Shown here one piece after another: positions 1 through 50,044 of a DNA stretch of 64,000 nucleotides; the stretch's first letter is position 1, and each line of letters opens with the position of its first letter. The stretch spans positions 1-64,000 of the forward strand of contig NZ_BATQ01000142.1 of assembly GCF_000739635.1 (NCBI RefSeq). The letters are read 5' to 3'. The stretch comes from Verrucomicrobium sp. BvORR034. Lineage in GTDB: Bacteria; Verrucomicrobiota; Verrucomicrobiia; Verrucomicrobiales; Verrucomicrobiaceae. The position numbers and the translations under genes are program-made. The notes under the pieces are model-generated. The model was not told the DNA's origin, made no database searches, and saw only the letters and a program-made list of their open reading frames with translations.

Positions 1-17
1 CTCCAACCCGAGACCCC

Positions 18-55
18 ATCTTGTTAATCCTTCAAAAATCTTGTCAATCCTGTCT
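18..55. repeat. 38-bp dispersed repeat, copy 1 (solo)
   Basis: Begins ATCTTGTTAATC and ends CAATCCTGTCT. The same 38-bp design occurs at 13775, 37000 (inverted), 37478 and 50007. It lies 20 bp past the stop codon of the minus-strand lipoprotein gene. Each copy contains two staggered versions of ATCTTGTYAATC about 20 bp apart. Solo copy: no GxxExxY gene is next to it in the window. Confidence 0.85.
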
Positions 56-13660: not shown

Positions 13661-13774
13661 AAAAGCAAAAGCACCGAGCCCCAGCAAAAGGGCAATCGCA
13701 GCACAGTTGCTCCAAGCCTGGTATTTTCCAAGAACCTATCGCCCTCATCCAGCCCGACTCATCCTCAATTCCCC

Positions 13775-13812
13775 ATCTTGTTAATCTTCTAAAAATCTTG
13801 TCAATCCTGTCT
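13775..13812. repeat. 38-bp dispersed repeat, copy 2 (solo)
   Basis: Same 38-bp element as at 18-55 (it differs in the variable middle, CTTCTAAAA). It starts 21 bp beyond the stop codon of the minus-strand DUF1501 gene, in the same orientation relative to that gene as copies 1 and 5. Confidence 0.85.
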
Positions 13813-35452: not shown

Positions 35453-35824
35453 ATGCCAAGAGCCACCAACGCACCCGCCAGTCGCGCCCGCCGCAAGCGT
35501 ACCCTTCAGAAAGCCAAGGGTTTCCGCGGCTTCCGTTCGAAATTGTTCCGTTACGCCAAGGACGCCGTCCGCAAGGCGATGACCTACGCCTATCGCGACC
35601 GCAAGGTTCGCAAGCGTGAGTTCCGCAAGCTTTGGATCCAGCGTATCAACGCCGCCACTCGCGCACAGGGTCTGAGCTACAGCCGATTTACCGAGGGCTT
35701 GAAGGCCGCGGGCATCGAGCTTGACCGCAAGGTCCTCTCCGATATCGCCATCAAGGACGCCGCTGCTTTCAACGCCATCATCCAGCAAGCCAAAACAGCC
35801 CTGGAGAAGAAGGCTGCTGCTTAA
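35453..35824 (+). CDS. rplT: 50S ribosomal protein L20
   Basis: 123 residues. The N-terminal extension is very basic ([20 protein letters not shown]), followed by the core motif [20 protein letters not shown]. It is an early assembly protein of the large subunit and in several bacteria a translational repressor of its own operon. The 140-bp rpmI-rplT gap is longer than usual and contains a stem-loop. A strong terminator follows at 35901, before pheS. Confidence 0.97.
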
Positions 35825-35900
35825 GCATCCGGAGCCAACCCCGTAAGGTGTGCCGGTTTCGCGACGAAAAGCACACTTTACCCCTCCAAAAAATTCAACG

Positions 35901-35938
35901 AAAGCCGGGGCAGCTTTGCTCCGGCTTTTTTGTTTTTT
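35901..35938 (+). terminator. intrinsic terminator of rpmI-rplT
   Basis: AAAGCCGGGGCA (35901-35912) pairs with TGCTCCGGCTTT (35917-35928, one G-T pair) around a 4-nt loop and runs into TTT-G-TTTTTT. Confidence 0.88.
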
Positions 35939-35984
35939 AACCGGTCCGCCCTGACCCGATTTTCCCGCACTCCTCCCCTTTCCC

Positions 35985-37001
35985 ATGCTCTCAGAACTCG
36001 ACACCATCCAGCTCGAAGGTCTCACCCTGCTGGCCTCCGTGGGCGATGAAACCGCCCTCGAAGCCTTGCGAGTGAACTTCTTGGGCAAAAAAGGCCGCCT
36101 CACCGCAGTCGCCTCCCAGATGCGGGACGTTCCTCCCGACCAGAAAGCCGCTGTCGGCGCCAAACTCAACGAGGTCCGCACCGCCCTGACTGCCGGCATC
36201 GAGGAAAGACTCCTCTCCCTTCAGGCAGAGAAAGACGCTGCCTCCGTTCAGGGCATCGATATCACCCTGCCTGGCCGTCCCTCCCCCGGTGCCACGCTCC
36301 ACCCACTCTCCCGCATCCGCGACCGCGCCATCCAGACGCTCCGCCGGATGGGTTTTGCCGTGGCGGACGGTCCAGAAATCGAAACAGAGTGGCACTGCTT
36401 CGACGCGCTCAACACCCCCGCCGACCACCCGGCCCGCAATGAGAAGGACACCTTCTATCTTCCGGACGGCCGTCTGCTGCGCACGCACACCTCCTCCGTC
36501 CAGATCCGCACCATGGAGGTGGTGAAGGCCCTTCCTGTGCGCATCATCGCTCCCGGCGCCGCCTACCGCCGCGATGAGATCGATGCCACCCATCTGAGCG
36601 TCTTCAATCAGCTCGAAGGCCTGTACGTGGACAAGAATGTCAGCCTCGCGGACCTCAAAGGCACTCTGGAAGTCTTCTTCCAGGAGATCTTTGGCCCCCA
36701 GACCCAGGTCCGTTTCCGCCCCCACTTCTTCCCCTTCACCGAGCCCAGCTTTGAGATCGACATCAAGCTCGAGGTGAAAGGCCAGGAGGCCCGCTGGATC
36801 GAGATCGCTGGCTGCGGCATGGTAGACCCTGCCGTCTTCCAGGCCGTATCCCAGATGCGCGGCGACAACCTCTTCAACCCCGAGGAAGTCACCGGCTTTG
36901 CCTTCGGCATGGGCCTCGACCGCCTCGCGATGATCCTGCACGGCATCACCGACATTCGCCACCTCATTGAGAACGACGTCCGTTTCTTGTCTCAGTTCTA
37001 G
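35985..37001 (+). CDS. pheS: phenylalanine-tRNA ligase alpha subunit
   Basis: 338 residues. It has the N-terminal helical coiled coil, then class II motifs: HPLSRIRDRAIQTLRRMGFAV (motif 1 area), HTSSVQIRTME, RFRPHFFPFTEPSFEID (motif 2 area) and GFAFGMGLDRLAMI (motif 3). It charges tRNA-Phe as an alpha2-beta2 tetramer with PheT. The stop codon TAG at 36999-37001 overlaps the first base pairs of a 38-bp repeat: a 516-bp cassette separates it from pheT, where normally only a few bases do. Confidence 0.97.
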   Translation: MLSELDTIQLEGLTLLASVGDETALEALRVNFLGKKGRLTAVASQMRDVPPDQKAAVGAKLNEVRTALTAGIEERLLSLQAEKDAASVQGIDITLPGRPSPGATLHPLSRIRDRAIQTLRRMGFAVADGPEIETEWHCFDALNTPADHPARNEKDTFYLPDGRLLRTHTSSVQIRTMEVVKALPVRIIAPGAAYRRDEIDATHLSVFNQLEGLYVDKNVSLADLKGTLEVFFQEIFGPQTQVRFRPHFFPFTEPSFEIDIKLEVKGQEARWIEIAGCGMVDPAVFQAVSQMRGDNLFNPEEVTGFAFGMGLDRLAMILHGITDIRHLIENDVRFLSQF

Positions 37002-37037
37002 ACAGGATTAACAAGATTTCGGAGAGATTTACAAGAT
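37000..37037 (+). repeat. 38-bp dispersed repeat, copy 3 (left end of the GxxExxY cassette)
   Basis: Reverse complement of the design at 18-55: it reads ATCTTGTAAATC on the minus strand and ends TCCTGTCT. It is the only copy in this orientation in the window and makes an imperfect inverted pair with copy 4. Confidence 0.85.
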
Positions 37038-37461
37038 GAGAACGGCTGAGGACGAGCTCACGCACAAGATCATTGGCTGCGCCATGAAGGTGCACAACGC
37101 CCTCGGTCCTGGTTTCCTCGAATCCGTCTACCATCGATGCATGGAAATTGAGCTCGCCGCTCAAAACATCATCTTTGAGTCCGAAAGGAAGCTCAATGTG
37201 TTCTACGAAGGCAAGATCGTCGGACACTTCATCGCTGACCTGTACATCTCCCCGAAACTAATTGTTGAACTCAAGGCGATCGAATCGATCACGCCCTCTC
37301 ATGAGGTGCAGCTCGTGAACTACCTCGCCGCCACCGGCATCGACAACGGATTGCTTCTCAACTTTGGCAGCCAAAGCCTCCAGCCCAAACGCAAGTTTCG
37401 CCTTAGCAAACCCAAACCAGCTTCCTTCGACGGTCATCCTTCGCTGACAGCCTCCGAATGA
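37036..37461 (+). CDS. GxxExxY protein (PD-(D/E)XK nuclease-like)
   Basis: 141 residues. The family motif GFLESVY (G-x-x-E-x-x-Y) is in a segment GPGFLESVYHR near residues 24-34, and the nuclease-like core is ADLYISPKLIVELKAI, which has the D...ExK arrangement of PD-(D/E)XK enzymes, followed by the conserved QLVNYLAATG. Typical members are 120-140 residues, so this one is complete. The activity of the family is not established. The C-terminal 25 residues look unrelated. The gene is placed between pheS and pheT within inverted repeats. Confidence 0.9.
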   Translation: MRTAEDELTHKIIGCAMKVHNALGPGFLESVYHRCMEIELAAQNIIFESERKLNVFYEGKIVGHFIADLYISPKLIVELKAIESITPSHEVQLVNYLAATGIDNGLLLNFGSQSLQPKRKFRLSKPKPASFDGHPSLTASE

Positions 37462-37477
37462 CGCCCTCCCGACCGTC

Positions 37478-37515
37478 ATCTTGTTAATCTTTTTAAAATC
37501 CTGTTAATCCTGTCT
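37478..37515 (+). repeat. 38-bp dispersed repeat, copy 4 (right end of the GxxExxY cassette)
   Basis: Same orientation on the plus strand as copies 1, 2 and 5 but with CCTGTTAATC in the second half and TTTTTAAA in the middle. It ends one base before the pheT ATG, so the pheT leader consists of the repeat. Confidence 0.85.
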
Positions 37516-39915
37516 ATGAAAGTCTCCCTCTCCTGGCTTAAAACGCACCTCGACCTCTCCGACAACACCGTCGACAGCATGCGTGATCTCCTCACGTTTG
37601 CGGGCATTGAGGTGGAGGACATTGAGGTTCGGGGTGTTGACTCCGACAAGATCGTGGTCGCGCAGGTTCTTGAGTCCGTCCAGCATCCAAATGCGGACCG
37701 CCTAAGCGTGTGCCAGGTGGATGACGGCAGCGGCACGCCGCGCCAGATCGTCTGTGGCGCGAAGAACTACAAGGTGGGCGACAAGATCCCGCTGGCACTG
37801 CCGGGAGCCATTCTCCCCGGCGGACTGGAGATCAAGGCGGGCAAGCTCCGCGATGTGGTCTCCAATGGCATGATGTGCAGCGGTCGCGAGCTGGGCATTG
37901 GCGATGATCACGCCGGCCTTATGATCCTGGATCCCTCTTTGAAGGTGGGCACACCGTTCACGGAAGTGGTGCCCCCAGATGTGGTGTTCGATCTGGAAAT
38001 CACCCCCAACCGTCCAGATCTGCTGAGCCACACCGGTCTGGCCCGCGAACTGGCCGCCCTGACCAAGAAAGGTCTCGAACCCAAGTCGCCTGTTCCGCAA
38101 GCAACGGTGAAGGAGGCGACACCCGATCAGGTGCGTCTGGATACGACCGAGCGATGCCCTCTCTACAGCGCTCGCATCATCAAGGGCGTGAAGGTGGGCC
38201 CGAGCCCTGAGTGGCTCCAGCGCCGTCTTCAGAGCGTAGGCCTGCGCCCCATCAACAACGTGGTGGACATCACGAACTTCGTCCTGCTCGAGGTGGGCCA
38301 GCCGCTGCACGCGTTCGATCTCGACAAGTTGAACGGCGGAATCATCGTCCGCCAGGCGGTGGATGGTGAGAAGATCGTGGCGCTCGATGCGGCCAACTAT
38401 GAGCTCACCACCGACGACCTCGTCATCGCGGATACCAGTGCCCCGGTGGCCATCGCCGGAGTGATGGGTGGCGAAGCCTCCAGCGTCACGGAAACAACCA
38501 CCGACCTCCTGCTGGAGTCCGCCTACTTCACCCCCAGCTTCATTCGACGTACTGCCCGGCGTCTGGGCATCAGCTCCGACTCCAGCTACCGCTTTGAGCG
38601 CGGCGTGGATCCGCAAGGCGCTCTGGCCGGCTCAGACCTGGCGGTGAAGATCATCCTCGAGATCGCCGGCGGCACCGCCGAGGCCGAAGTGCTAGTGGCG
38701 GGCACCGCCCCCCAGCTCACCCAGGATGTCACCTTCGACGAAACCCGGGCTCGCAATCTCATCGGCATCCCCGATCTGAGTCGCGAGGAGATGCACGGCG
38801 TGCTCGCCGGCCTGGGGCTGGCGAAGAAGAGCAAAACAGAGACCACCTCCCTCTGGCACATCCCTTCCTACCGCGGGGACCTCCAGCGCTCCGTGGACTT
38901 GGTCGAGGAAGTCGCTCGCGTGATCGGTCTGGACCGTGTGCCCAGCCGCACCGCCGCCGCCTTCTCTCCGAGCCTTGCCCCCGACCGCACCTATGACTTC
39001 ACCATGACCCTGCGCCAGGCCTTGGTGAACCGGGACGTCTTTGAGGCCCAGACCCTGCGCCTCATCTCCGGATCCCAGCTCACCGACGTCCTCGGGCCTG
39101 CCCTGACGCCGGACAAAGCCGTGGGAGTGAAGAACCCGCTCAGCGAAGATCACACCACGCTGCGCCCCAGCCTGGTCCCCGGACTGATCGCCACCGCAGC
39201 TCTCAATATCCGGCAGGGACTCCAGCGCCTGCGTTTCTTCGAGATCGGCCGCGTCTTCTTGAAGAATCCCAACGGCAGCACTCGTGAGGAAGAACGCCTC
39301 GCCCTGCTCCTGAGCGGCCCTTCTCTGCCGCCCAGTTGGCACGCCAAAGAAAGCCCCGCTCTGGAATTCACAGACCTCCGCGGCCTTCTGGAAGCGCTGC
39401 CGGGTCTGGCTGGTCAGGGTCTAGAGTTGGTGCCCAAGCCCCTCCCCGGCTGGCTCCTGAGCGCCGAGGTGAAACGGGGGAGCAAGACACTGGGCTGGGT
39501 GGCCCAGCTCCATCCTTCCCGCGCCCGCGAGCTGGACGCCCGCAGCCCCGTCTTCGTGGCGGAGCTCGCCATCAGCGCCCTCCAACAGGGCGCCCAAGGC
39601 GTGGCCAAGTTCACTGATCTGCCCCGCTTCCCCAGCGTGACACGCGATGTCGCCCTCGAGGTGCCAGCCGATCTGGCGACCGCCAAAGTGGCCGCGTTTT
39701 TCAGCACTCTCAAGGAACCCTTGTTCGCAGGAGCCTCGCTCTTCGACGTGTTCACAGACACCACGGGACAAAAGCTCGCCAGTGACAAAAAGTCCGTGGC
39801 GTGGTGCTTGACGTACCGTGCGTCTGACCGCACCTTGGCGACGAAAGAAGTGGATGAAGCTCACGCTCGTGTGCTGAAAACACTGGTTGGCACGCTCCCC
39901 GCTACCATCCGGTAA
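37516..39915 (+). CDS. pheT: phenylalanine-tRNA ligase beta subunit
   Basis: 799 residues. The N-terminal EMAP-type tRNA-binding domain is present (VVAQVLESVQHPNADRL and RQIVCGAKNYKVGDKIPLALPGA). The B3/B4 editing region (NNVVDITNFVLLEVGQPLHAFD), B5, the inactive class II core and a C-terminal anticodon-binding FDX-ACB domain (LPRFPSVTRDVALEVPADLA) follow in order. It forms the Phe-tRNA ligase tetramer with PheS. Its ATG follows the 38-bp repeat directly, with no Shine-Dalgarno site. It is followed by the proposed 6S RNA. Confidence 0.97.
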   Translation: MKVSLSWLKTHLDLSDNTVDSMRDLLTFAGIEVEDIEVRGVDSDKIVVAQVLESVQHPNADRLSVCQVDDGSGTPRQIVCGAKNYKVGDKIPLALPGAILPGGLEIKAGKLRDVVSNGMMCSGRELGIGDDHAGLMILDPSLKVGTPFTEVVPPDVVFDLEITPNRPDLLSHTGLARELAALTKKGLEPKSPVPQATVKEATPDQVRLDTTERCPLYSARIIKGVKVGPSPEWLQRRLQSVGLRPINNVVDITNFVLLEVGQPLHAFDLDKLNGGIIVRQAVDGEKIVALDAANYELTTDDLVIADTSAPVAIAGVMGGEASSVTETTTDLLLESAYFTPSFIRRTARRLGISSDSSYRFERGVDPQGALAGSDLAVKIILEIAGGTAEAEVLVAGTAPQLTQDVTFDETRARNLIGIPDLSREEMHGVLAGLGLAKKSKTETTSLWHIPSYRGDLQRSVDLVEEVARVIGLDRVPSRTAAAFSPSLAPDRTYDFTMTLRQALVNRDVFEAQTLRLISGSQLTDVLGPALTPDKAVGVKNPLSEDHTTLRPSLVPGLIATAALNIRQGLQRLRFFEIGRVFLKNPNGSTREEERLALLLSGPSLPPSWHAKESPALEFTDLRGLLEALPGLAGQGLELVPKPLPGWLLSAEVKRGSKTLGWVAQLHPSRARELDARSPVFVAELAISALQQGAQGVAKFTDLPRFPSVTRDVALEVPADLATAKVAAFFSTLKEPLFAGASLFDVFTDTTGQKLASDKKSVAWCLTYRASDRTLATKEVDEAHARVLKTLVGTLPATIR

Positions 39916-49774: not shown

Positions 49775-50006
49775 GGTGTGAGGGAGGTTGCGAACAACCA
49801 CCATACGAAAGAGTCCGCCAAATATTCCAACGTCATGCCGCCAAGTCGCGCAGATACCAGTCCCTGCAAGACCTCATCATCAGGTGCAGCAATATCGCTT
49901 CGACCTGGGGAGAGGGCACCGTTTCAAGTTTTCAGTTTTCAGTTTTTAGCAAAACAGCTGCTCATGTCTGTCGTCCATTCGCCCCAAAGAATCCCATCCA
50001 GGTCCC

Positions 50007-50044
50007 ATCTTGTTAATCCTTCAGAAATCTTGTCAATCCTGTCT
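50007..50044. repeat. 38-bp dispersed repeat, copy 5 (solo)
   Basis: Differs from copy 1 by a single base in 38 (G for A at position 18). Lies 24 bp past the stop codon of the minus-strand SDR gene. Upstream (49922-49950) a short AT-rich TTTTCAG repeat is seen. Confidence 0.85.

Follow-up and report, generated by a model that had tools for sequence, protein, structure and literature searches.

PD-(D/E)XK homing endonucleases exist, I-Ssp6803I among them, and the motif E...D...ExK...QxxxY is the signature of RecB/Cas4/lambda-exonuclease-type nucleases. RAYTs are relatives of the HUH/Y1 transposases, and a REP is a palindrome tagged with GTAG or CGTC (PMC3733652). In Coxiella, the 23S rRNA intervening sequence (IVS) is a selfish element of 428 nt. 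It has an S23 ORF and complementary ends that contain heptamer repeats, and it is excised by RNase III (PMC4990558). Cyanobacteria and Beggiatoaceae have heptamer repeats (STRR, TAACTGA), which are short-period intergenic repeats in direct arrays (PMC4679880).

A unit of ~0.5 kb, consisting of one small gene and two inverted arms, is located between pheS and pheT in a 64,000-nt stretch of DNA from Verrucomicrobium sp. BvORR034, called the window here. The host genome (G000) is an 8.58-Mb draft; the closest among the named records matched was Verrucomicrobium sp. BvORR106. The plus strand carries pheS (35985..37001), a GxxExxY / PDDEXK_3 nuclease-like gene for a protein of 141 aa (37036..37461; PF13366, TIGR04256) and pheT (37516..39915). 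The left arm (36999..37039, plus strand) is a quasi-periodic run of AGGATT-type units of ~9 bp (ACAGGATTAACAAGATT...GATTAACAAGATG), and the right arm (37476..37516, minus strand) is its inverted copy; the arms are 41 nt each, 85% complementary and 436 nt apart. The TAG stop codon of pheS is the start of the left arm and is supplied by its outer end, TAGACAGG. The ATG of the GxxExxY gene is inside the inner end of the same arm. The outer end of the right arm is the complement of TAGACAGG, and its last base is the A of the pheT ATG (37516). The preliminary description, a GxxExxY gene between inverted repeats that reach from the pheS stop to the pheT start, was confirmed, as was its statement that the flanking essential genes are left whole, both ORFs being intact. 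One detail was corrected: the ends are inverted as described, but each is an arm of ~9-bp units and not a single 38-bp block.

The window protein matches PF13366 (E 1.5e-40, 138.7 bits against a cut-off of 22) and TIGR04256 GxxExxY (E 2.3e-41, 140.8 bits against a cut-off of 35). An alignment of 37 relatives shows no variation at residues E29, D68, E78, K80, H89, Q92 and Y96; E29, D68, E78-x-K80 and Q92-x3-Y96 are intact in the window protein. A profile search with the protein matched no PDB sequence. For the AlphaFold2 model (pLDDT 90) the best solved-structure match in Foldseek was SSO0001 (E 1.4e-4), which we take to be a Sulfolobus Cas4; LHK-Exo and lambda exonuclease came next, and the TM was a modest ~0.5. 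On the basis of the conserved residues and the modelled fold, the protein is predicted to be a Cas4/RecB-type PD-(D/E)XK nuclease. Like Cas4, RecB and lambda exonuclease it has the E...D...ExK...QxxxY core, together with the fold match to SSO0001; unlike them, GxxExxY proteins stand alone, are 120-140 aa long and are not in a CRISPR locus here, and the window protein has no cysteine cluster. GxxExxY and PF13366 received passing mentions only in the open-access literature searched; no description of GxxExxY function was found in the open-access papers searched, and arm-like sequences searched there as text gave no match.

Among described systems REP/REPIN with RAYT (TnpA-REP) is functionally the closest. 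It too combines a single-copy nuclease gene with inverted short repeats next to it, and it too has dispersed intergenic copies without the gene, both paired and solo (PMC3116915, PMC8266576). The unit does not belong to it, because both nuclease fold and repeat form differ: the protein is of the PD-(D/E)XK and not the HUH/Y1 type, with PDDEXK_3 as the only Pfam match, and the arms are non-palindromic periodic AGGATT-type runs without a GTAG or CGTC tag. RAYT-like genes in GC-rich inverted repeats of their own were observed in genome G067 (L243:12406-12948, L266:1938-2473) and represent a separate system of similar layout. With the 23S rRNA IVS the unit shares its size (~0.4-0.5 kb), a single small ORF, ends that are complementary and contain short tandem units, and toleration in essential transcripts (PMC4990558); it differs in lying at a protein-gene junction and in having a GxxExxY nuclease ORF of another fold, not rRNA and S23. 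It resembles a homing endonuclease gene in encoding a nuclease and in its lateral recurrence at a single allelic site, but it is free-standing, with no intron or intein, has inverted periodic arms, miniatures and solo copies, and its cleavage activity is putative. The heptamer repeats resemble the arms in short period and intergenic location, but in the available part of that source there is no report of them forming inverted arms on either side of a nuclease or S23 gene (PMC4679880). There was no Rfam match in 35800-38500. The unit lacks the transposase domain of an insertion sequence or DDE transposon, its sole gene being PDDEXK_3.

The layout is general. A flanking inverted repeat was scored as significant when it beat all 100 shuffles. 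Such repeats were found at 120 of 172 distinct GxxExxY loci (76/95 in the host family; 44/77 elsewhere, at loci chosen by similarity to the window protein, in groups including Bacteroidota, Planctomycetota, Spirochaetes and Thiotrichales), against 1/95 control ORFs, and the proposed link of GxxExxY genes in general with inverted repeats was upheld. No significant arms were found at 52/172 loci; because start codons were set by rule, some arms may have been missed or shifted and a few loci wrongly bounded, and some of the relatives' genomes are metagenome assemblies. Left and right flanks combined from different loci were significant in 17/172 cases, a rate to be expected because some unrelated loci have a common arm type. 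The arm period is 8-10 with a peak at 9 (95/160 arms), while shuffled arms are flat, and the arm types are AGGATT, CGGAA, CAGAG, CTAAT and GAAGG. On the protein tree, arm type needs 15 changes (shuffled mean 53, minimum 48), or 9 against 18.9 for shuffled data (minimum 14) when each genomic site of the family is represented by a single locus. Arm type follows the protein phylogeny, and therefore protein and arms change together. Each unit is one Cas4/RecB-type nuclease gene with two inverted arms of 8-10 bp quasi-periodic repeats, and the same arm types are also seen in palindromes that have no gene and in solo arms. Genes of the S23 family have significant flanking inverted repeats at 39/45 loci, with an arm period of 7-8. 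The S23/TIGR02436 loci of the host family (L191-L239) are four-helix-bundle genes outside rRNA, with inverted arms at shared gene junctions, where arms and protein were seen to be swapped between sister species.

For comparison of the junction, PheS was located in 28 genomes. A GxxExxY gene lies between pheS and pheT in 9 sampled genomes of the family and at 7 further family loci (16 altogether); in other family members the spacer is 19-86 nt and has no unit. Empty sites, for which the preliminary description had proposed a comparison of relatives, were found alongside filled ones and a gene-less one. The last, in G004 (L076), is a 115-nt spacer with a gene-less inverted repeat of CTAAT type, so the slot takes a different arm class too. 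No target-site duplication was definable in the filled and empty junction pairs compared.

The 16 junction units come out as a single clade in a tree of 170 GxxExxY proteins (1 change, against a mean of 15.6 and a minimum of 12 in shuffles), and this clade was not inherited with its hosts. PheS of the window is 99% identical to that of its closest relative, G067; their units are only 52% identical and differ in their arms (ACAGGATTAACAAGATT in the window, ACAGAATTAACAGAATT in G067), and the surrounding DNA is ~94% identical up to the unit edges. The unit of G065, a more distant relative than G067, is 78% identical to the window's and has the same arm type. The genus clade has a support of 98/98 in the PheS tree. 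In the unit tree, the AU test rejected sisterhood of G000 and G067 (p-AU 4.9e-6) and also a tree that held the three genus members together (p-AU 2.6e-4). The G067 unit groups with that of G011, a member of another genus, both having AGAATT-type arms; among the pheS-pheT loci with arms of this type are L064 and L294. The idea of a unit peculiar to the window's genome was not borne out: the pheS-pheT junction is an old slot in the family and has been re-occupied recurrently.

Nearly all GxxExxY and S23 genes of G000, G065 and G067 lie between inverted short-period arms at junctions common to the three species, and each gene within one genome has its own arm type. At the same site the flanking DNA is 85-97% identical, and the unit proteins are 50-62% identical in some pairs and 100% in others; the identical ones come from G065 and G067, at two sites of GxxExxY genes and one of an S23 gene. 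These two genomes are ~100% identical over ~690 bp of the unit at gxD, with flanks at 93%. Between G000 and G067 the S23 unit at gspF has sharp edges, with identities of 57-68% inside and 95-99% outside. One junction holds a full GxxExxY unit in G000 and only the right arm in G067 and G065. Another has a GxxExxY unit in G067 and a gene-less palindrome of different arm type in G000 and G065. A third has a nested palindrome (see below) in G067 and G065 and a AATTAGGAAT-type palindrome in G000. Units are located at fixed gene-gene junctions, where a unit is either exchanged for a divergent one or passed from species to species with hardly any change. The compact, selfish-looking unit of the preliminary description is supported, as are same-site replacement and the filled, empty and gene-less states of junctions, and lateral transfer to the same allelic site, which characterizes homing elements, is indicated indirectly by these comparisons. 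Unit movement was seen directly at no junction compared, and same-site replacement could come about by ordinary recombination among standing alleles.

The reading that we favour, and regard as somewhat better than evenly probable, is that the unit is mobile in a homing-like way, that its nuclease, of Cas4/RecB fold, acts on the unit's own arms, and that it belongs to a minimal, widespread class. The nuclease would recognise the arm units and cut an arm-bearing or a unit-free junction, and repair from unit-bearing DNA would then install the unit. Miniatures and solo arms would derive from such units by mobilisation in trans or by decay. The unit lies directly behind a stop codon and its arms supply stop and start codons, which leaves both neighbours intact, and pairing of the arms in the mRNA probably makes the insert harmless. 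A point against the favoured reading is that the fold matches are exonucleases of the family, with a TM of only ~0.5.

The predicted RNA of the unit has an MFE of -172.6 kcal/mol (z -5.6), with strong pairing of the arms, so that complementary ends forming a stem are found here as in an IVS. Such pairing may explain how two essential genes that are transcribed together can tolerate an insert between them, in the manner of the Coxiella IVS. If this were the whole matter, the unit would be an mRNA counterpart of the 23S rRNA IVS: the arms would pair in the pheST transcript, RNase III would excise the insert, the protein would be secondary, and RNA processing would matter instead of DNA cutting. 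The nearly complete pairing of the arms in the predicted transcript speaks for this, together with the Coxiella precedent of an S23 ORF, complementary ends and RNase III cutting (PMC4990558) and with the S23 genes found in the same architecture (39/45 loci). We consider it unlikely, since it requires neither an arm type that tracks nuclease phylogeny nor an invariant active site, yet both were found, and solo arms are unable to form a hairpin alone.

The DNA-level, homing-like reading must also account for the solo arms. Three solo copies had been reported elsewhere in the window, and all are real, with matches to a 17-bp core motif on the minus strand: 17..55 (matches at 17/37), on the 3' side of a minus-strand gene, 13774..13812 (13774/13794) and 50006..50044 (50006/50026). 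The core has 9 matches in the window against 0.02 expected, and 118 in the 8.58-Mb host genome against 0 for the reversed-pattern control; the repeat counts rest on pattern searches and a 0.8-Mb sample of G067. With only 3 GxxExxY genes in the host genome, and with gene-less palindromes and solo arms at hand, the claim that the repeats also occur without the gene holds. Gene-less palindromes of ~110 bp with AGAATT arms, often enclosed by CAGAG-type arms that extend them to ~190 bp, form a dispersed family in G000, G065 and G067. The solos at 13774-13812 and 50006-50044 have orthologous copies in G065 and G067, and the solo at 17-55 has an orthologous solo in G065 and a fragment in G067. Because all three have same-place counterparts in both sister species they are old and vertically inherited, and a recent spread of these solos was rejected. 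The earlier mobile-unit reading is largely, though not wholly, supported: same-site replacement and gene-less repeats agree with it, recent spread of the solos and a genome-peculiar unit were not borne out, and mobilisation in trans by the nuclease is putative.

The window's solo arms are recognisable and in place in the sister species though the adjoining intergenic DNA has diverged; their persistence may possibly reflect selection or conversion. When 59 copies of the window's arm type or the close AGAATT variant were read in context, a co-oriented upstream gene ended within 40 nt of the arm's outer end in 26, and a convergent gene end was that close to the inner end in only 2. The arms may have a cellular role, because most copies of the window's type are solo and at gene 3' ends. 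In another explanation the arms are host elements, such as 3'-end or terminator-like repeats, and GxxExxY genes would merely recombine into junctions that hold them. This is improbable to about the same degree as the RNA-processing explanation: the excess of motif matches over genes, the position relative to stop codons and the conservation of solos amid diverged DNA fit it, but from one protein clade to another, across phyla, the arm sequence changes too, and within a single genome every gene is flanked by an arm type of its own. Vertical inheritance in which unit and arms evolved very fast and the two arms underwent conversion with each other, but nothing moved, is strongly disfavoured and very improbable, for although most sites are common to relatives and site clusters are mostly single clades, it conflicts with the trees (p-AU 5e-6), with one species pair being 50% identical at one site and 100% at two others, with a near-identical tract limited to one unit, and with the presence of empty and filled junctions.

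Units of this kind appear to be very small mobile DNAs that have gone largely undescribed; the open-access papers searched gave no account of them, and because the literature search covered such papers only, the novelty is provisional. More tentatively, with the balance tipping slightly against it, GxxExxY and S23 genes could mark the two branches with genes in one broad class of mobile DNA, itself undescribed, that has inverted short-period arms, each family reading its own rhythm (~9 bp for GxxExxY, 7-8 bp for S23) and homing into fixed junctions, with dependent miniatures and solos. If so, its debris would make up a large part of the periodic repeats that lie unexplained between genes in Verrucomicrobiota, Bacteroidota and other phyla. 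The cognate repeats give GxxExxY, a common, multi-copy bacterial family, a testable substrate, and they connect two puzzles: the selfish intervening sequences of 23S rRNA, and the intergenic repeats with a short period that environmental bacteria carry. With a nuclease of ~130 residues, a target repeat readable from its own flanks and more than 100 natural pairs, specificity would be directly testable.

A nested palindrome of ~190 bp without a gene, with CAGAG-type arms outside and AGAATT-type arms inside, was also observed in dozens of copies in G000, G065 and G067; examples are L266:10050-10250, L253:19760-19970, L339, L344 and L347-L350.
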